Below are positions 1-6,864 of a stretch of 6,864 bases of DNA, piece after piece. The position numbers and the translations under genes are program-made. A model generated the notes under the pieces. That model saw only the letters and a list, made by a program, of their open reading frames with translations, searched no databases and was not told where the DNA came from. Source of the stretch: an uncultured Clostridia bacterium. Lineage in GTDB: Bacteria; Bacillota_A; Clostridia; TANB77; CAG-508. Every line of letters starts with the position of its first letter. Position 1 is the first letter of the stretch. The DNA is taken from assembly GCA_947627825.1 (NCBI GenBank), contig CANQXO010000075.1:1-6864 (forward strand), written 5' to 3'.

Positions 1-77
1 GATTCATCTCTATTTTTTATTGGTACTTGTGCTATTAGTTCTTTTGGTAAATCATAATTAAAATCTGCTACTTTCAT
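1..77 (-). CDS. queA: QueA, S-adenosylmethionine:tRNA ribosyltransferase-isomerase (N-terminal fragment, runs off the window)
   Basis: Only the first 25 codons and part of the next are in the window; the rest lies beyond base 1. The fragment contains DFNYDLPKELIAQVPIKNRD, which matches the well-conserved QueA N-terminus (pattern DFDYxLPxELIAQxPxxxRD). QueA transfers and isomerises the ribosyl group of S-adenosylmethionine onto 7-aminomethyl-7-deazaguanine in tRNA, giving epoxyqueuosine at the wobble position; it acts in the cytoplasm. Two in-frame ATGs exist, at 83 and 77. The purine-rich stretch AGAAAGAAG is well spaced for 77 and too close for 83, and family members usually begin MKxxDF, so 77 is preferred. 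The gene starts 45 nt after the stop of the metalloprotease-like gene with no terminator between, so the two are probably cotranscribed, although their functions look unrelated. Confidence 0.88.
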   Translation of the reverse strand, partial: MKVADFNYDLPKELIAQVPIKNRDE

Positions 78-122
78 TTTCATTCTTCTTTCTGTTATTT
101 GCTTTATTTGAATTTTAAAGTG

Positions 123-1526
123 TTATGCGCCTATATCACTTTCTACTAGTTCATTTTGATTTTCAATATTTTGGCTACTTCCATTACTAAACATTTTTAT
201 TAATTTCTTAAACAATATTCCTATCTCTTCAAAAATGTTGGCAGGTTCTTTTAAATCATTAAGTTCTATTGATAAATTAAAATCACTTGCTTTTGCAGGC
301 TTTTTAGTAAATATTTCCTCATTTAAACCAACATTGCCACTAGATGACCTTATTTCACAATTCAAATAATCCTTATACCAATCTTTTAAACCTACTAATT
401 TTTGATCTTGGTATCCGTAATATGAATATGAGTGTAACTCTGGTACATCATACCCATATTCTTCAGAATTTCTTTCTAAAGTGTGTAAAAATTCATGAAT
501 ATATACTTCTTCTGGGAATGTGTTTATTCTTGTATCATATTTATAAATATAATTATTAGACTCATTTGGAAGCCTTATATTTGAAAATCCTATGCCCCTA
601 TATTGCATTCCTCCAAGTCCTATCCAGTCATTTACTGGTATTTCATTTTGTGTGTTTATATCTCCCGTTCTAAATGCTATAAATATGTGGTCATATTTTC
701 CAGCATCTATATATTTATCCAACGTTTCCTTAACATCTGTTGGAGATACATAATACCCATTATCTTTGTCATGTGACATTGTAGTTATTTCTTCTTTTAC
801 TTCTTTTACTTCATATCTAGCATTTATTTTTCCTTTAGATAACTCTGATAATGATGTTTTAAATCTTTCAATACAAGCTTTCATATCTTCTTTATCCTCT
901 TCTGATAAATGCAATTTTATATTCTTTTCTCCACTATCATAAGGTATATTTACATTAACATTGTCAAATAGCAAACATAAGAAATTCCATGTGTTTGATA
1001 TATCTGCACTTCCAGATTCTATCTTAAAATCTGAAAACCATGCTGTTCCTTTTGAATTTCCTGCATAACCACCTAATCTAAACCCTACCTCTACCATTGT
1101 TTTATCTTTTGAATTAAATACAAATTCAAGCTTTGTCCAATCTGTTGTACCAGTTACATCTACAGATTTTTCCATAGTTTTATTTAGACATATATGTGCT
1201 CCTGCATCTACATTACTTTCCTCATTTTCTACATTTTCAGTTTTTACCATACAAGTAACTCTATATGATGTATTTGGAGATACTGGTATTTCTTTATAAA
1301 ACATGGCGTCATTATATTGCTCACTATGTATTTTATAACTATTTACTTCAGAATATTTTACCTTACTATCTCTTTCGAATTCAGAAAGCCCCCTATTATA
1401 TTCTGCCTTTACATACTCATTAAAATTGTATTTAGAATAAATTAAATATGCTATTACTAAAATAGCAATTATAATTACCAAAAATAAAATTTTTCCTATT
1501 ACTTTTAATACTTTTCTTGTGTTCAT
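123..1526 (-). CDS. Membrane-anchored extracellular protein with CBM-like jelly-roll and HExxH metalloprotease-like domain
   Basis: A 467-residue protein. A Lys/Arg-rich start is followed by one hydrophobic helix (about 11-30) without a clear cleavage site, suggesting a membrane tether with the rest outside. Residues about 75-172 resemble carbohydrate-binding jelly-roll domains of the CBM4/9 type: IPVSPNTSYRVTCMVKT, then GTTDWTKLEFVFNS, then GTAWFSDFKIESG. Residues about 200-400 hold a putative zinc-peptidase region with HEFLH at 344-348, where H344 and H348 would bind zinc and E345 would be the catalytic base. The motif lacks the metzincin HExxHxxGxxH extension, so the third ligand is unclear; E355, E356, D360 and H365 are candidates. 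The C-terminus has a possible amphipathic helix (about 430-447) and no sortase motif. The start is ATG with an AAGGA-type ribosome site upstream. It has its own promoter (1619-1647). Proteolytic activity and substrate are inferred from the motif only; I recognise no named family. Confidence 0.85.
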   Translation of the reverse strand: MNTRKVLKVIGKILFLVIIIAILVIAYLIYSKYNFNEYVKAEYNRGLSEFERDSKVKYSEVNSYKIHSEQYNDAMFYKEIPVSPNTSYRVTCMVKTENVENEESNVDAGAHICLNKTMEKSVDVTGTTDWTKLEFVFNSKDKTMVEVGFRLGGYAGNSKGTAWFSDFKIESGSADISNTWNFLCLLFDNVNVNIPYDSGEKNIKLHLSEEDKEDMKACIERFKTSLSELSKGKINARYEVKEVKEEITTMSHDKDNGYYVSPTDVKETLDKYIDAGKYDHIFIAFRTGDINTQNEIPVNDWIGLGGMQYRGIGFSNIRLPNESNNYIYKYDTRINTFPEEVYIHEFLHTLERNSEEYGYDVPELHSYSYYGYQDQKLVGLKDWYKDYLNCEIRSSSGNVGLNEEIFTKKPAKASDFNLSIELNDLKEPANIFEEIGILFKKLIKMFSNGSSQNIENQNELVESDIGA

Positions 1527-1618
1527 AAAATTTCCATTCCTTTCTTGCTTTGCTCATAAGGTATATATAGTAATGAAAAATTATTTCTTTCAAACTATTT
1601 TCCTTTTTCTATTGTAAT

Positions 1619-1647
1619 ATTATACTAAATTTTCAAGCTATACACAA
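1619..1647 (-). promoter_or_regulatory. Sigma-A-type promoter for the metalloprotease-like gene and queA
   Basis: On the minus strand, a -35 box TTGTGT (1647-1642) is separated by exactly 17 bp from a perfect -10 box TATAAT (1624-1619). Transcription would begin near 1612, giving a leader of about 85 nt before the ATG at 1526. It lies downstream of the terminator of the preceding operon, which is where an independent promoter would be needed. AT-rich DNA yields such matches by chance, but the consensus -10, ideal spacing and position together are good support. Confidence 0.65.
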
Positions 1648-1728
1648 TAGTTAATCTCATTTTATTTTTAATTTTATAGAAAATATTAATATGTTATTCG
1701 TTTAGTATTGTTTAACTAATTATATGCT

Positions 1729-1763
1729 AAAAAATGGGGCTACCATTTACGACAGCCTCATTT
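1729..1763 (-). terminator. Intrinsic terminator ending the surface-protein operon
   Basis: Read on the minus strand, a 13-bp stem (1763-1751 with 1744-1732; one A/C mismatch, two G-U pairs, central GGCU/AGCC) closes a 6-nt loop and runs straight into six T residues (1734-1729). It is the only GC-richer patch in an otherwise very AT-rich gap and sits 35 nt after the stop of the Ig-like surface protein gene. On the plus strand the stem is not followed by a T-run, so it acts in the minus direction. The rest of the gap (1527-1797) holds only the promoter at 1619-1647. Confidence 0.85.
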
Positions 1764-1797
1764 ACATTATATTTAATATATTTAATTATTTTTAATT

Positions 1798-3270
1798 TTA
1801 TTTAATGTCCATATTCTTTCTATATTTTTTCATTGCTACAATTCCAATAACTGCAATTATTGCTATTACTACAAATATAGCTAAACTTTCACCTGTTTGT
1901 GGTATTGTTCCTTGAGCCATAGTATTGTCTTTACCACTTGTTGTTCCTGCGTTATTACCACTATTGCTCGTTCCAGAGTTACTACCATTATTAGTACTTC
2001 CGCTATTACCTCCATTGTTTGTGCTAGAGTTACTACCATTGTTGCTACTGTTATTGTTTGAACCTCCACTGCTTTGTCCACTATTATTTCCTGAATTAGT
2101 ATCTTGATTTCCAGTATTATTATTATCTATTCCATCCACATTTGCTCTTATATAATTTGTTCCTGTTATTGATGGACAACTAAGTTTTGCATCATTTCCA
2201 GTTTCATCCTTAATTGTTCCACCTTCTAAACTAACAGTAGCAAGTTGACCAACGTCTGTTGCTTGAATATTATATGAGTATTCAATAAAATGTGCTGTTC
2301 CTGAAGTTTTAATTATTCCATTTGTTACACTTCTTACGGGACTTTCTCCAAATTTAATTTTTAAAGTTGGTACTGACGTTCCTGTAATTGTTTCACTAAA
2401 ATATACACCTATTTTTACTGTTTGACCTGTTTTATATGTTCCAGATAATGGAGTTATAACTTTTATAGATTCTACTGTTGGTACATCTACATCTAATCCT
2501 TCTATATATTGTTCCACTTTAGTTGCTTCTGGTATACCATCATGTATTATGCAACCATATATATCTTTGCAACCATCTCCTGTAAGTCTTAACCATAAGA
2601 AATATAAACCTGGTTCTTTATGACTATTTTCACCAAAAGTTGAACTAGTATCTTGAACGTTCCAGCCTGTTGTAGGATGATTAGGCAAATAATTTTCTAA
2701 AGTAGATATGTCATCTCCATTATTCTTAACTTTTAAAAATTGTTCTATAAATGTTTTATCTTTTACTATTTGAAATTTATAATAAGTTTTTTTAGTTCCA
2801 AGCAAATCATACCCTCCTATACTATCATAAACATCGTGTACATTATAACTTCCTTTGTCATAGGCTGTATAACTAGTTGCTTGTAAAAGTGGTAATTTTA
2901 AATTTACATCCAATTTTGCTACATATGTACCACTTTCATTATTTTTTTCCCTTACAAATAAAGTTCCTACATCTGCTACTCGTAAAACTTCAACAATTCC
3001 TGTTGTTCCAGATCCTAAATTAACTTTTAGTGTACTTGTTGTTTTTTCAGTTACATCAAACCATTTTGATGGTACACTTCCTTGTGTAGCTAATCCATAT
3101 TCGTATGCTTTTTCTGTTTGTAATTCTAAACCTGATAAATTAATTACTATTGAACCATCATTACTTGGTATAGTTCTTGTATAACTTACTGCAGCATCTA
3201 CTTTAGTAGACATTATAAATAACCCTATACTAGTTATTATTAATATTAAAAAATACTTTACAGTTTTCAT
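1798..3270 (-). CDS. Cell-wall-anchored surface protein: Ig-like domain, Asn/Ser/Gly linker, IPQTGE sorting signal
   Basis: A 490-residue secreted protein. Residues 1-26 form a signal peptide with likely cleavage after KVDA. Residues about 27-265 are a beta-rich region I do not recognise, with a Cys pair in GCKDIYGC that could form a disulfide. Residues about 265-375 (from VESIKVITPLSGTYKTGQTV through GGTIKDETGNDA) resemble bacterial Ig-like repeats of the SwmB type found in adhesins. An Asn/Ser/Gly/Thr linker (about 383-448) probably spans the wall. IPQTGE (456-461), a hydrophobic helix and the basic tail KKYRK form a sortase signal. An earlier in-frame ATG exists at 3285, but it has no ribosome site; GGAGG (3283-3279) is 8 nt from the ATG at 3270, the spacing also used by pspA and the GIDE-like gene, so 3270 is the start. 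It begins 26 nt after the VWA gene's stop and ends the operon. Role is likely adhesion or surface structure; ligand unknown. Confidence 0.88.
   Translation of the reverse strand: MKTVKYFLILIITSIGLFIMSTKVDAAVSYTRTIPSNDGSIVINLSGLELQTEKAYEYGLATQGSVPSKWFDVTEKTTSTLKVNLGSGTTGIVEVLRVADVGTLFVREKNNESGTYVAKLDVNLKLPLLQATSYTAYDKGSYNVHDVYDSIGGYDLLGTKKTYYKFQIVKDKTFIEQFLKVKNNGDDISTLENYLPNHPTTGWNVQDTSSTFGENSHKEPGLYFLWLRLTGDGCKDIYGCIIHDGIPEATKVEQYIEGLDVDVPTVESIKVITPLSGTYKTGQTVKIGVYFSETITGTSVPTLKIKFGESPVRSVTNGIIKTSGTAHFIEYSYNIQATDVGQLATVSLEGGTIKDETGNDAKLSCPSITGTNYIRANVDGIDNNNTGNQDTNSGNNSGQSSGGSNNNSSNNGSNSSTNNGGNSGSTNNGSNSGTSNSGNNAGTTSGKDNTMAQGTIPQTGESLAIFVVIAIIAVIGIVAMKKYRKNMDIK
1880..1936. repeat. 57-bp perfect direct repeat, copy 1 (sorting-signal module)
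   Basis: This stretch is identical over all 57 bases to 3376-3432. It encodes the GKDNTMAQGTIPQTGESLA region just before and through the sortase motif of the Ig-like protein. Similarity continues more loosely to the stop codon (to about 1801), covering the membrane helix and charged tail, and drops off on the other side. Confidence 0.95.
1937..2120 (-). repeat. Low-complexity region coding the Asn/Ser/Gly linker
   Basis: This stretch within the Ig-like protein gene uses mainly AAT/AAC, AGT/AGC, GGT/GGA and ACT codons, giving a Gly/Asn/Ser/Thr-only linker. A 15-base word repeats exactly at 1975-1989 and 2026-2040 (51 bp, 17 codons apart), and NNGSNS recurs in the protein. The structure suggests growth by in-frame slippage or duplication. 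Length variation between strains would be expected. Confidence 0.75.
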
Positions 3271-3296
3271 TTTATTTTCCTCCATTTTATTTTTAA

Positions 3297-4787
3297 TTAT
3301 ATGTCCATATTCTTTTTATATTTGTTCATTGCTACTATTCCAATAACTACAACTATTGAAATTACTGCAAAAATTGCTAAACTTTCACCTGTTTGTGGTA
3401 TTGTTCCTTGAGCCATAGTATTGTCTTTACCAGTAGTTGTACCTCCTCCTGTACCATTACCATCAATATTAACATCAGGAATATCTGGTTCACGTTCTTC
3501 TTCCTTTTGAGTTAATTTTATTTGTGGACTATCTGTTAAAGTTACTGTATATGACTTTTCATTAGTATCTTTATATGTAAGTACAACTTTTTCATTTGTA
3601 GATATTACCTTATCTAACAATTCCTCATTATCCATATCTTTTAATTTTAATTTATATTTAACTGTTGCAGTTTCATCACCTTTTAAAGTATCCATATTCC
3701 AAGTTATTGTATGGTTTTCTTCATCAATTACATCTGATATTTCTCCAACATTAGGTTTTCCGACGTATTCAAATGTAAAGTTTTCTGTTATATCTTCTGG
3801 AAAATAATCGACTATTTCTACTGTATTTATTGGATTACTTATTTTACTTGAAACATCTTTAAAAATTTCTTCTGTAATGACACTATCTACATCTGTACTT
3901 TGTGCTAAATAATACTTATCAGCTGTGGGGTTCGTAGGTGTTCCAAATATTCTCTCTGCAGCTTCTAAACTTTCTTCTAATGTTTGATTCTCACCCCACA
4001 CACTATTTCCATTTTCATCTTTATCTGTTGCATCCATTCCTGTAAGCATTGCTATTGTGTATATTCCTTTTTTCTTTAAATCTAATATCGTTTGCTTTGT
4101 ATTATTTTGTACTTCAATTGCTTTTTCTGATACTACATTATTTCCTGCACTATTTCCTTTCGCATCTGAAGTTGGTATTCCATCCGTTAATAAAATTATG
4201 ACTTTATTTCCCGCATTTTCAGAAAAGTTATTTTCGGCATTTTTTAGTCCTGCATCTATATTTGTACCACCCATATATCCATTTCTCGTTTTTTGATCAT
4301 TTACAGCTTTTAATATAGTATCTTCATCTTCTGTTAATTTCTGTCTCATAGAAGCATCATACATACCAGCAAAAATTCCTTCAAAGTCAATTAAACCAAC
4401 TTTAATATTTTTAGAAATATCAAACATTGACTTTACTAATTGATAAGCACTATCTACTACTAATTGTTTTCTACTAACTCCTGCAGTTGTCATAAAATCC
4501 ATAGATGGTGAATTATCTATAACAAGAAATACTTCTGTAGCTGATACTGTTTCAGTTTCTTTTTTTGTATTTGATAGCTTTAACTCAACTGTAACCTCTC
4601 CATTTTCTGGATCAGAATTTACAATTGATTTTGATATATATCCTTGGTCATTCTCTAAATTTTTAGTAGTACTAGATTCTTTTACTACCTGTAGTATGTT
4701 AGTACTTGCTGCATTAACACTTGTAATACCACTAGCACAAATTAAAATTAATACTATTCCTATTATTAAAATTTTTTTCATTTTCAT
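3297..4787 (-). CDS. Cell-wall-anchored VWA-domain surface protein with intact MIDAS and IPQTGE sorting signal
   Basis: A 496-residue secreted protein. Residues 1-26 are a signal peptide (cleavage near SVNA-A). A short beta region (about 45-85) precedes a von Willebrand factor A domain (about 85-320). Its metal-ion-dependent adhesion site is complete: DNSPS gives D91, S93 and S95, GGTN gives T175, and LLTDG gives D202. Residues about 320-425 form a beta domain (NTVEIVDYFPEDI, then TITWNMDTLKGDETATVKYK) like the stalk domains that follow VWA in Gram-positive pilus-tip and adhesin proteins. An acidic and Gly-rich stretch leads to IPQTGE (463-468), a membrane helix and a short Lys/Asn tail. The first ATG is chosen because a GAGGG ribosome site lies 6 nt upstream; it would be too far for the second ATG at 4781. 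It lies 53 nt after the GIDE-like gene and 26 nt before the Ig-like gene. Likely role: metal-dependent binding of a surface or matrix ligand; the partner is unknown. Confidence 0.92.
   Translation of the reverse strand: MKMKKILIIGIVLILICASGITSVNAASTNILQVVKESSTTKNLENDQGYISKSIVNSDPENGEVTVELKLSNTKKETETVSATEVFLVIDNSPSMDFMTTAGVSRKQLVVDSAYQLVKSMFDISKNIKVGLIDFEGIFAGMYDASMRQKLTEDEDTILKAVNDQKTRNGYMGGTNIDAGLKNAENNFSENAGNKVIILLTDGIPTSDAKGNSAGNNVVSEKAIEVQNNTKQTILDLKKKGIYTIAMLTGMDATDKDENGNSVWGENQTLEESLEAAERIFGTPTNPTADKYYLAQSTDVDSVITEEIFKDVSSKISNPINTVEIVDYFPEDITENFTFEYVGKPNVGEISDVIDEENHTITWNMDTLKGDETATVKYKLKLKDMDNEELLDKVISTNEKVVLTYKDTNEKSYTVTLTDSPQIKLTQKEEEREPDIPDVNIDGNGTGGGTTTGKDNTMAQGTIPQTGESLAIFAVISIVVVIGIVAMNKYKKNMDI
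3376..3432. repeat. 57-bp perfect direct repeat, copy 2 (sorting-signal module)
   Basis: Identical to 1880-1936; encodes the matching sortase-signal region of the VWA protein. Identity continues imperfectly to the stop codon on the 3' side, so the two genes share a common C-terminal anchoring module of about 45 residues while their ectodomains are unrelated. Confidence 0.95.
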
Positions 4788-4808
4788 ATGTTTCCCTCTT
4801 TATTTTTC

Positions 4809-4836
4809 ATTATTTAATAACTTTATAAACTTACAA
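4809..4836 (-). promoter_or_regulatory. Possible weak internal promoter before the VWA gene
   Basis: In the 53-nt gap after the GIDE-like gene, TTGTAA (4836-4831) is followed after 16 bp by AATAAT (4814-4809) on the minus strand. A transcript would start only a few bases before the ribosome site GAGGG (4798-4794). The match is imperfect and the DNA is nearly all A and T, so this may be chance. If real, the two surface proteins could be expressed without the upstream membrane genes. Confidence 0.25.
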
Positions 4837-4840
4837 AATT

Positions 4841-5632
4841 TTAATTTCTTTTAATAAAAAACATAACTACTATTCCTCTAACTATTGCAGCCATTCCTAC
4901 AAAAAGTGCAAATTTTGAATTTTTATCAGATGTGTTTACCATATCTTCTTCAGATTTTGTACTAACAATAAATGGTTTTTTAGCATCCATTGGCTTTCCT
5001 ATATGAATTACATTACCTACTCTAAATGCTTCACCTATTACATATAAACTTTGGTTTAAATTTATTGTTTTTTCAATCATTCTAAACCCTAAAGTCTCTG
5101 CTCCAAATCTATCCCATGAAAATCTATTAAAATATCTATACCCTGAAAGATTATTTTTAGGTTCAAATCTATCAAAAGTAGTAGGAATATCTAACTCGCA
5201 ACCTGTAGCATTTACCTCTAAAACAACCTCTCCTGTTCCATCAGTCATACTAATTTCTTGGCTTGTTTTTTCATCAGATATCACATTTTCTGCTTTATTT
5301 GTTCTAGTATTATAATTTCCATTTGCATCTCTATATTGTTCTTTTACTTCTGTAACCTGTGATAGTTTAGATTCACAATATGCAACTTTTTTGCTTGAAA
5401 ATGGCGTTTCCACATTGGCTTGTGTAACAACATTTCCTTTTAGTTCTACATATTCTCTATAATCATTTCCCATTCCAGAAGCATCCATTTGGCTAAACAT
5501 ATCTTGAAGTTCTGAAATTTTTTTGGTTTGCATATATTTCATTTCCATAGAATTATTTTTCATTTTTGGTCTCATGTAAAATATTGCAGCCAAACCAATA
5601 GCAATAAGGGCCAACCCCATTATTATGTTCAT
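4841..5632 (-). CDS. GIDE-like domain membrane protein (no RING), partner gene of PspA
   Basis: A 263-residue protein with a hydrophobic helix at each end (about 2-20 and 241-259), the middle being one soluble domain. The core resembles the GIDE domain known from the mitochondrial E3 ligase MUL1/MULAN and its prokaryotic relatives: YVELKGNVV (61-69), TPFSSKKVAYCES (76-88), a charged loop, DGTGEVVLEV (131-140), LGFRMIEKTI (181-190), LYVIGEAF (196-203) and PFIVSTKSEED (220-230). No RING finger or other catalytic motif is present, so ubiquitin-ligase activity should not be assumed; the bacterial domain is thought to act at membranes. The start has AGGAGG (5646-5641) 8 nt upstream. It lies 43 nt after pspA, across an inverted repeat, and is likely cotranscribed with it. 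I infer a role in membrane maintenance with PspA; the biochemical function is unknown. Family assignment is by motif pattern only. Confidence 0.8.
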   Translation of the reverse strand: MNIIMGLALIAIGLAAIFYMRPKMKNNSMEMKYMQTKKISELQDMFSQMDASGMGNDYREYVELKGNVVTQANVETPFSSKKVAYCESKLSQVTEVKEQYRDANGNYNTRTNKAENVISDEKTSQEISMTDGTGEVVLEVNATGCELDIPTTFDRFEPKNNLSGYRYFNRFSWDRFGAETLGFRMIEKTINLNQSLYVIGEAFRVGNVIHIGKPMDAKKPFIVSTKSEEDMVNTSDKNSKFALFVGMAAIVRGIVVMFFIKRN

Positions 5633-5649
5633 TTGTTGTTCCTCCTATC

Positions 5650-5678
5650 TAGAAAAAGTAATTTTGATACTTTTTCTA
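5650..5678 (-). other. Intercistronic hairpin between pspA and the GIDE-like gene
   Basis: A perfect 11-bp inverted repeat (5678-5668 with 5660-5650 on the minus strand) with a 7-nt loop. The left arm contains the pspA stop codon TAG, and the right arm ends 3 nt before the AGGAGG ribosome site of the next gene. The right arm carries five T residues but is not followed by a T-run and the stem is AU-rich, so it is at best a leaky terminator. It may instead adjust relative expression of the two genes through mRNA stability or ribosome access. Confidence 0.6.
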
Positions 5679-6347
5679 ATTTCCACCATTCATTTCATTT
5701 TTTAATTTTTCTAATTCTGCATTAACTGCATTTTCTTTATCCATTTGAGCAAATGGATCTGATTCTGATTCTTGTACTCCAGAAACATCTGCAAATGCAT
5801 CTGCTTGAGATTCCTTTGCTTCAATTTTTTGCTCCATTTTATCCATTTTAGCAAAAGCACTTTTGCTATCCATACTTCCTAAAGTTTTAGCCATATCTGC
5901 TTTAGCATCTGCCATTCTACTTCTAGCAACTAACATAGCTTGTTTGCTTCTTGCTTCTTCTAATTTTTGTTTTAATATATCTACTTGAGATTTTATTTCA
6001 TTTACTTGTGCTTCCATTGAATTAACCATCTCTTGGTACTGACTAACCATTTTATCTTGTTTTACTTTATTTTCCAATGCTTGTTTTGCTAATTCTTCAT
6101 TTCCTTGCTCCAAGCAAGTTTTAGCTTTTGCTTGCCATGTATTTGATTGTTCTTGTGCCTCTTCTAATTGTTTTTTCACTTGATTTAAGCTTCCCATTGC
6201 TGTACCTAAACCTTGTGTTGATTTTCTTAATTGTTCCTCCATATCTATAATTATTTGTTTTACCATCTTTTCTGGATCTTCTGCCTTGTCTATTAAATCA
6301 TTAATATTTGATCTTACTAAATCACTTAATCTTTCAAAAATTGCCAT
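5676..6347 (-). CDS. pspA: PspA/IM30 family membrane-stress protein
   Basis: A 223-residue protein, the usual length for the PspA/IM30 (Vipp1) family. It opens with the family's amphipathic helix (MAIFERLSDLVRSNINDLID) followed by the hallmark EDPEKM at 23-28, then a long coiled-coil (about 28-185) rich in Glu, Gln, Lys and Ala. The tail includes ESDPFAQMDKE and a final short helix. Family members have an ESCRT-III fold, form rings or rods on the inner face of the cytoplasmic membrane, and protect or remodel it under envelope stress. AGGAGG (6361-6356) sits 8 nt before the ATG. The neighbours are membrane proteins: a four-helix protein 45 nt upstream and a GIDE-like protein 43 nt downstream, likely a functional unit. 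No pspF, pspB/C or liaFSR genes are in the window, so control of expression is not visible here. The symbol denotes family, not proven orthology to E. coli PspA or Bacillus LiaH. Confidence 0.95.
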   Translation of the reverse strand: MAIFERLSDLVRSNINDLIDKAEDPEKMVKQIIIDMEEQLRKSTQGLGTAMGSLNQVKKQLEEAQEQSNTWQAKAKTCLEQGNEELAKQALENKVKQDKMVSQYQEMVNSMEAQVNEIKSQVDILKQKLEEARSKQAMLVARSRMADAKADMAKTLGSMDSKSAFAKMDKMEQKIEAKESQADAFADVSGVQESESDPFAQMDKENAVNAELEKLKNEMNGGN

Positions 6348-6392
6348 TTTAAATTCCTCCTATTACTTATAATTTCATAAATTGTAGTTTTA

Positions 6393-6833
6393 TTAATCTT
6401 TCTTTTTAAATAAAACTCTTAATAGCAAGCCTGCACCTGCTGCTGCCATTCCTATTATTAAAATGTATTCATATAATGATGTTGCAACAAAATTTATTCT
6501 TACACTCATTATAATTGCTGCAACTATTATAACTGCACCTAGTACCATAAATATTTTAGCTATAATTGATTTTGGATTTACAAATTGCCATATTATTCCT
6601 ATAATTAATGGAACAATAACTAAACCTGATGTAATATCCATTCCCCATAATCTAAATCCCCAACTTGTGTGTACCACTACTCTTTGGCTAAGCATAAATA
6701 GACCTACTCCTAATAGTATTAGACCCACAAAAAATAGTAATAAATCATTACTTCCCTTTTTGTTAGATGCTTCAGCATTTTCATTATTAGGTTTTAAATT
6801 ATTAACTTCTTCTACAATTTTCTTGTCCGACAA
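6393..6833 (-). CDS. Four-helix membrane protein of unknown function, cotranscribed with pspA
   Basis: A 146-residue protein with a polar N-terminus (about 1-29, rich in Asn, Lys and Glu) and four predicted membrane helices (about 30-49, 68-84, 90-110 and 120-141), ending in the basic tail FKKKD. Helices one and two are joined by a loop with Trp and Arg (HTSWGFRLWGMD). The start is TTG: the codon before it in frame is TAG, so no longer reading is possible, and GGTGGTGAT (6847-6839), a near match to the extended ribosome site, lies 5 nt upstream. It is 45 nt from pspA with no terminator between. Small multi-helix proteins often accompany PspA-family genes and recruit PspA to the membrane or sense stress; by position this protein may do so, but I see no diagnostic PspB, PspC or LiaF motif and the function is unknown. 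Confidence 0.85.
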   Translation of the reverse strand: MSDKKIVEEVNNLKPNNENAEASNKKGSNDLLLFFVGLILLGVGLFMLSQRVVVHTSWGFRLWGMDITSGLVIVPLIIGIIWQFVNPKSIIAKIFMVLGAVIIVAAIIMSVRINFVATSLYEYILIIGMAAAGAGLLLRVLFKKKD

Positions 6834-6856
6834 CTATTATCACCACCATTCTTTTA

Positions 6857-6862
6857 ATTATA
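6857..6862 (-). promoter_or_regulatory. Possible -10 box of the pspA operon
   Basis: TATAAT occurs on the minus strand at 6862-6857, 23 nt before the TTG start and just upstream of its ribosome site. The matching -35 region would lie beyond the window edge, so it cannot be confirmed. The DNA here is almost pure A and T, which makes chance matches common. Confidence 0.3.
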
Positions 6863-6864
6863 TA

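Follow-up and report, generated by a model that had tools for sequence, protein, structure and literature searches.

The minus strand of a 6,864-nucleotide stretch of DNA from an uncultured Clostridia bacterium (assembly GCA_947627825.1, contig CANQXO010000075.1, positions 1 to 6,864; the whole stretch is called the window below) carries a group of envelope genes that is the subject of this study. Read 5' to 3' from the listing of open reading frames (ORFs), these are the genes for a four-helix membrane protein (TM4), PspA and a GIDE-domain protein, together called the triad here, followed by a gene for a surface protein with a VWA domain and a second surface gene. The initial annotation described five tightly spaced genes on one strand, and all five ORFs are indeed found there, on the minus strand and 11-53 bases apart (45 between TM4 and pspA, 43 between pspA and the GIDE gene, 53 between the GIDE and VWA genes, and 11 between the VWA gene and that of surface protein 2). 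The genes and the repeat shared by the two surface genes are as follows.

6393 to 6833, minus strand: TM4, 146 residues, four transmembrane (TM) helices, charged N-terminus, unnamed family
5676 to 6347, minus strand: PspA/IM30 (bacterial ESCRT-III family), 223 residues, PF04012 at E 4.7e-47
4841 to 5632, minus strand: GIDE/BAM-domain protein, 263 residues, TM helix, beta barrel, TM helix, PF12483 at E 1.2e-24
3297 to 4787, minus strand: surface protein 1 (VWA), PF13519 at 4e-12 and PF21426 at 1.4e-6, signal peptide, IPQTG
1798 to 3270, minus strand: surface protein 2, ORF extendable to 3285, signal peptide, beta-rich ectodomain, Asn/Ser-rich linker, IPQTG
3292 to 3459, minus strand: anchor-coding repeat, copy in surface protein 1, 86% identical to the copy at 1796-1963
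1796 to 1963, minus strand: anchor-coding repeat, copy in surface protein 2, 168-nucleotide direct repeat

The three triad products are what they had been taken for, a four-helix protein, a PspA and a GIDE protein with two membrane helices, as judged from hydropathy, Pfam matches over cut-off and a structure model. TM4 starts at a TTG codon, a choice backed by alignment with 17 relatives (36-89% identity), and has hydrophobic peaks at residues 31-49, 67-85, 90-108 and 124-142. Pfam profile searches placed it in no curated family over cut-off; DUF2157 matched at E 0.0081 with 16.3 bits, under its cut-off of 32.4, and LiaI-LiaF-like_TM1 matched weakly (E 0.07) in one of the 18 members of the TM4 family. 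The PspA_IM30 domain scored 160.9 bits against a curated cut-off of 33.9, and the best match among solved PspA/Vipp1 chains was 6zvr (E 7.2e-33). By domain and solved-chain match the protein is a member of PspA/IM30 in the ESCRT-III superfamily, with a putative membrane remodelling or sealing activity. The GIDE domain (87.1 bits, cut-off 23.6) is flanked by two TM helices, and the model of the protein (pLDDT 83) has an OB-fold-like barrel. The chain stops after the second TM helix and Pfam gave no match to a RING domain, so the GIDE protein is not a ubiquitin ligase. TM4 and the GIDE protein are thus predicted membrane proteins, with a topology that follows from hydropathy and modelling.

Surface protein 1 contains a VWA_2 domain (47.1 bits, cut-off 27) with intact DxSxS/T/D metal-site motifs and a GBS104-like tip-pilin Ig domain (29.5 bits, cut-off 26), and the profile of its VWA matches the pilus chains 6m3y and 6m48 (SpaC) at E about 3e-9. 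Surface protein 2 is 490 residues long in its database copy. Of its two candidate starts, the ATG at 3270 is the more probable, since the one at 3285 overlaps a GGAGG ribosome-binding site. It has no Pfam domain over cut-off, and its model shows a confident beta-rich chain from residue 34 to 388, then a disordered linker rich in Asn and Ser and, at the C-terminus, a TM segment. For surface protein 2, then, "Ig-like" applies only in a loose sense of fold. Pattern scans found in both proteins a hydrophobic N-terminus and a C-terminal IPQTGES followed by a hydrophobic stretch and a K/R tail. These features agree with the proposal that both are anchored by sortase, but the LPXTG_anchor model scores them at 12.8 and 15.4 bits, just below its cut-off of 15.9; a linked surface protein at the related locus L001 passes that cut-off with 20.8 bits. 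The last 50 residues of the two window proteins are 84% identical and the remainder only 23%, which points to ectodomain exchange on a shared anchor. Among relatives of surface protein 2 (P0261, P0281, P0282, P0359 and P0360), precomputed assignments give PF00059, PF02368 (Big_2) or PF13306, the first and last of which we take to be the C-type lectin and leucine-rich repeat families; it is as if ectodomains had been swapped. At the triad of Candidatus Merdicola (L040/L087) the VWA gene is frameshifted at the sorting signal, and P0145 looks similar; phase variation and sequencing error are both possible.

The initial annotation held that restriction of this layout to one strain would speak against a link between the surface genes and the triad, and the layout was found in other species. 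Relatives were sought by matching two peptide patterns from the GIDE alignment to one genome per species (84,980 species), which returned 28 loci. The 21 closest (L001 to L021), from Clostridia-type metagenome-assembled genomes, are at least that many, as a pattern search can miss further relatives. TM4 and PspA lie beside GIDE in 20 of the 21, with L019 counted through L087, another contig of the same genome; neither was seen at the L013 locus. A tight run of surface gene and triad on the same strand is present in nine (L001, L002, L003, L005, L006, L007, L008, L019 and L021), where the surface gene is at most 203 bases from the triad. The L019 run was read on L087, where the VWA end is frameshifted, and the Big_2 gene of L003 is short (229 residues, without the N-terminal part). 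Additionally, L004 and L011 have a VWA gene on the same strand 2.2-2.3 kb from the triad. The spacing can be very tight, as in the L008 run U169-D4870-VWA-TM4-PspA-GIDE, with gaps of 26, 12, 18, 18 and 15 bases. At L002 the order is Big_2 surface protein, sortase, TM4, PspA and GIDE with gaps of 51, 28, 18 and 19; the sortase gene between surface gene and TM4 matches PF04203 at E 3.7e-24, with no sortase class model over cut-off, and it is the only sortase-profile match within L001 to L021. Linked runs often include DUF2752 (102-108 residues), DUF4870 (107-121 residues) and a one-TM protein of 169-185 residues of unknown family. DUF4870 and the 169-residue family also adjoin VWA genes at L072 and L077, which have no triad, so these small partners, like the surface genes, can occur without it. 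At L082 (7465-11158) and L083 (7259-10835) a VWA surface gene is flanked by two sortase genes with no PspA triad in view.

Surface genes are more frequent near the triad than elsewhere in these genomes. A count over 197,130 bases, reaching 6 kb from the triad, gave 20 sortase-type ORFs at 14 of 23 triad loci (L001 to L021, L087 and the window, whose own two genes are among the 20), and all 20 are co-oriented with the triad. A control of 20 other stretches, drawn from 9 of these triad-bearing genomes (eight of the stretches from G163), held seven such ORFs in 387,654 bases, a rate at which 3.6 would be expected near the triads. An exact two-sample test of 20 against 7 gave P 2e-5. When the window, a doubtful hit at L017 and two duplicate copies at L007 were removed, 15 remained (P 8e-4). 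These values are used in place of a Poisson value of 1.5e-9, which takes the control rate as exact. It should be noted that the sortase-type pattern gives false positives, the control's seven including one doubtful ORF and two that we take for FtsW-like proteins, that one of the 20 ORFs sits between the L007 tandem copies within a span left out of the searched bases, and that the L087 VWA escapes the pattern with its frameshifted end. The surface genes had been expected to follow the triad, and the gene-order count does not agree: a surface gene lies upstream in 12 of the 23 loci (at L017 a single doubtful one) and downstream in only four (the window, L001, L007 and, 1.2 kb off, L003).

PspA is widespread in bacteria, and the combination seen here is sparse. 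Genome samples of the family, order and class were surveyed, and the three overlap. A profile search found GIDE in 6 of 195 family genomes. PspA exceeded the Pfam cut-off in eight, namely the six GIDE genomes, with one PspA each, and G034 and G093, where the PspA genes adjoin those of Gly-rich two-TM proteins that match no Pfam family over cut-off, and where the genes listed included none flagged as sortase-type. Four of the six GIDE genomes have a VWA gene near the triad (G001, G163, G013 and, with a 2.2-kb gap, G179); in G019 a contig end cuts the locus, and G081 has no VWA gene near the triad. The order sample had GIDE in 10 of 385 genomes. The class sample had it in 4 of 391, G001 included; in the remaining three the PspA-GIDE pair is a distant one, and the genes listed around it included no flagged TM4 or sortase-type neighbour. 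Similarly, PspA accompanies GIDE in five of the seven distant loci (L022 to L028), L028 has a TM4 relative as well, and no sortase-type ORF was flagged at any of them. Such pairs without sorted neighbours indicate that the PspA-GIDE pair is broader and that TM4 reaches slightly beyond this clade; the sorted surface genes look like an addition made within the clade itself. Sortases are encoded in all 10 relative GIDE genomes, with 3 to 10 in each.

The surface partners change much faster than the genes they stand beside. The window and L001 share a gene order from TM4 to a queA-like gene, the surface genes excepted. PspA is 95.5% identical between the two, TM4 89%, GIDE 84.7% and the gene at 123-1526 86.6%, but the better VWA match reaches 57% and the last surface gene 34%. 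Nonsynonymous divergence (dN) is 0.02-0.09 for the triad and flanking gene and 0.30-0.72 for the surface genes. Partners differ in kind as well, since a Big_2 protein is found at L001, L002, L003 and L007 and an amylopullulanase ORF overlaps TM4 at L021. The DxSxS metal-site motif is kept in six of nine triad-linked VWAs and lost in L001_04, L004_06 and L005_10; L001 itself (3442-6594) has two tandem VWA surface genes, one with the motif and one without. On a quick tree of 37 rows from the best VWA-profile matches (duplicate loci and proteins of 350 residues or fewer or 180 bits or fewer left out), the nine linked VWAs require 6 label changes, at least 5 of them forced by starred branches. A GIDE tree of 28 rows, 20 of them labelled and with L010 and L020 scored as not linked, has 7 changes of the link, of which starred branches account for at least 3, without clustering (410 of 500 shuffles as low).

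Additional features of the window bear on whether the genes form one transcription unit.

1738 to 1757, minus strand: terminator-like hairpin and T run after the last surface gene, from the terminator scan
5650 to 5678, minus strand: 11-bp perfect inverted repeat in the pspA-GIDE gap, with 0 of 200 shuffles as long
123 to 1526, minus strand: next gene, 271 bp beyond, 467-residue product with one N-terminal TM segment and an HEFLH motif, conserved with L001

The site at 1757-1738, 3' of the last surface gene, is the single terminator-like site on the minus strand of the window, and the scan found none between 4841 and 4787, where the triad meets the surface genes. From this arrangement we infer that the triad and the surface genes may share one transcript. 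The gene at 123-1526 is probably a unit separate from the surface genes. Its HEFLH product, a possible metallopeptidase, matched no Pfam family over cut-off, its matches to carbohydrate-binding modules being weak and under cut-off, and the gene that starts beyond it is presumably queA-like (the L001 copy is L001_08). At the other end, the window stops 31 bases upstream of TM4, which leaves any genes beyond that point out of view. The pspA-GIDE gap of other loci also holds perfect inverted repeats, of 9 bp at L001 (2551-2580) and 9 bp at L005 (before 10001). They differ in sequence from each other and from that of the window, and for each none of 200 shuffles was as long. L014, with a long pspA-GIDE gap too, has a 7-bp repeat (25 of 200 shuffles), and loci with short gaps have 5 bp or fewer. 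These repeats are possibly mRNA hairpins that keep pspA expression above that of GIDE.

From the gene content, the tight co-oriented layout and its recurrence, the exchange and fast change of the partners and the sortases of the relatives, we read the locus as a Psp variant particular to this clade, in which a PspA triad is joined to exchangeable sorted surface proteins. Our tentative preference, held with somewhat less than even confidence, is that the module protects the membrane and is coupled in cis to surface proteins anchored in the wall. After export, the VWA and beta-rich proteins would be held in the membrane by their C-terminal TM segments until the IPQTG signal is cleaved by a sortase, which attaches them to the wall. 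Both their export and their retention would burden the membrane. TM4 and GIDE might then bring PspA to the inner face, through contacts among the three proteins, and PspA assemblies could support or seal the membrane at the sites of export and anchoring and so relieve the stress. A bolder version, which we think unlikely, is a two-sided membrane-wall machine in which TM4 and GIDE physically couple inner-face PspA assemblies to sorting sites, so that a zone dedicated to export and anchoring forms and the ESCRT-III protein helps to place the exchangeable surface proteins in the wall. If true, it would give a bacterial ESCRT-III protein a role in surface display, beyond damage repair.

Several observations weigh against membrane protection in cis. 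The VWA profile was found in 80 of 195 family genomes at E 1e-20, and most of these lack the triad, so the surface proteins do not need it. No trusted nearby surface gene was seen in 8 of the 21 closest loci (L009 and L012 to L018, of which L009 and L014 are truncated at contig ends), and at L010 and L020 the surface genes are of other kinds and lie 2.9 and 5.1 kb off. The linked label is somewhat clustered on the VWA tree (20 of 500 shuffles as low), and the apparent repeated gain and loss of the link on the GIDE tree also fits a loose association. Two hairpins count against it as well, an AT-rich one between pspA and GIDE in the window and a weak terminator-like one with 3 G-C pairs in the GIDE-VWA gap of L001 (RNA fold z -2.0). 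Taken further, such points would suggest a neighbourhood without joint function, in which nothing but recombination and co-transfer would link triad and surface genes within a variable locus that moves horizontally. The triad's sparseness (GIDE in 6 of 195) and the many solitary VWA genes fit this explanation, the shared anchor repeat and the surface turnover point to recombination, and so does a tandem at L007 (about 6942-17368), where a U169-RCC1-TM4-PspA-GIDE-Big_2 unit is repeated at 5104-bp spacing with 5128 of 5275 bases identical, provided that it is a recent amplification rather than an assembly artefact. However, all 20 neighbours are co-oriented, many gaps are below 60 bp, the link is kept where the gene order differs and across several lineages of VWA, and one run encloses a sortase gene. 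On balance we consider a neighbourhood of this kind unlikely, though it deserves serious weight.

Two other explanations give the surface proteins themselves a more active part. The initial annotation suggested an envelope system with an outer-face sensor, in which wall proteins would feel wall damage or attachment force and signal through TM4 and GIDE to PspA repair. The linkage it presupposed has been strengthened, since the surface genes do belong with the PspA triad in other species, all 20 neighbours counted are co-oriented with it and their number exceeds the same-genome background. A sensor is also compatible with the gene layout, with the metal-site motif intact in six of nine linked VWAs, with the profile match to the pilus adhesin SpaC and with GIDE and TM4 as membrane proteins by model and hydropathy. 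However, a dedicated sensor would be expected to stay conserved along with its machine, and the linked ectodomains are exchangeable and fast-evolving; three of nine VWAs lack the motif and the partner at L021 is an enzyme. Moreover, once sorted, the mature protein has left the membrane, so signalling through the membrane would not be easy. A sensor is therefore possible but rather improbable, and is not favoured over membrane protection. Alternatively, the surface proteins could be adhesins, with PspA strengthening the membrane patch under load where the cell attaches to host or particles. The VWA profile matches to 6m3y and 6m48 and to the GBS104 tip-pilin Ig model would fit, as would the variable ectodomains and the PF00059 or PF13306 domains in some relatives of surface protein 2, but the amylopullulanase partner at L021 is an enzyme, and we regard reinforcement of adhesion sites as the most doubtful of these explanations.

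With membrane protection in cis as the working interpretation, the recurrent run offers a concrete connection, open to testing, between the ESCRT-III machinery of the inner membrane and wall display, and hints that the cell might guard its membrane at the places where the outer surface is built. The prokaryotic GIDE domain gains a partner, and three further genes of the module can be named, those of the 169-residue one-TM family, DUF2752 and DUF4870.

The closest known systems are those of Psp and Lia (PspB/C, LiaI/H/G/F and ydjFGH-type operons), where PspA likewise lies beside small membrane proteins, and the four-TM partner in the window recalls the TM region of LiaI-LiaF. None of the six window genes encodes a PspB/C/F, Lia (LiaF/LiaRS), TPM or band-7 partner, in a view that ends 31 bases upstream of TM4, and the window's PspA differs in having sorted surface proteins as partners. 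The available main text of a 2024 survey of Psp partners (PMC11237479) has no GIDE, vWA, sortase, LPXTG, BAM or adhesin, but does treat cell-surface lipoproteins and a peptidoglycan-binding partner, and the available part of PMC9239133 has no occurrence of GIDE or sortase. Among the matches listed for open-licence papers on PspA, sortase, ESCRT-III or Lia, on GIDE and on VWA tip pilins, the titles and abstract starts (supplements apart) do not describe this layout. GIDE/BAM proteins such as MAPL/MUL1 and prokaryotic BAM carry their domain between two TM helices, as in the window, and the prokaryotic BAM proteins lack a RING, like the window GIDE, according to the accessible text of PMC4457424. 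The window GIDE differs in being paired with PspA and, unlike MAPL, in having no RING match. Surface protein 1 has the VWA, GBS104-like Ig domain and sorting signal of the tip pilins GBS104 and SpaC; Pfam found neither a pilus sortase nor a backbone pilin in the visible genes, up to the same window end, and unlike those pilins the window VWA is linked to a PspA triad. The nearest functional parallel is in Enterococcus faecalis. As the accessible text of PMC11326707 reports, cells without SrtA and HtrA have membrane-stuck pili that cause envelope stress and raise liaXYZ by about 3 log2-fold, and deletion of pilin genes brings liaXYZ expression nearer to wild type. There, as in the mechanism proposed here, a membrane-stress system (LiaXYZ/CroRS) answers a burden of sortase substrates; as far as that text goes, its link is regulatory, whereas the link in the window is one of gene neighbourhood and the machinery is PspA-GIDE.

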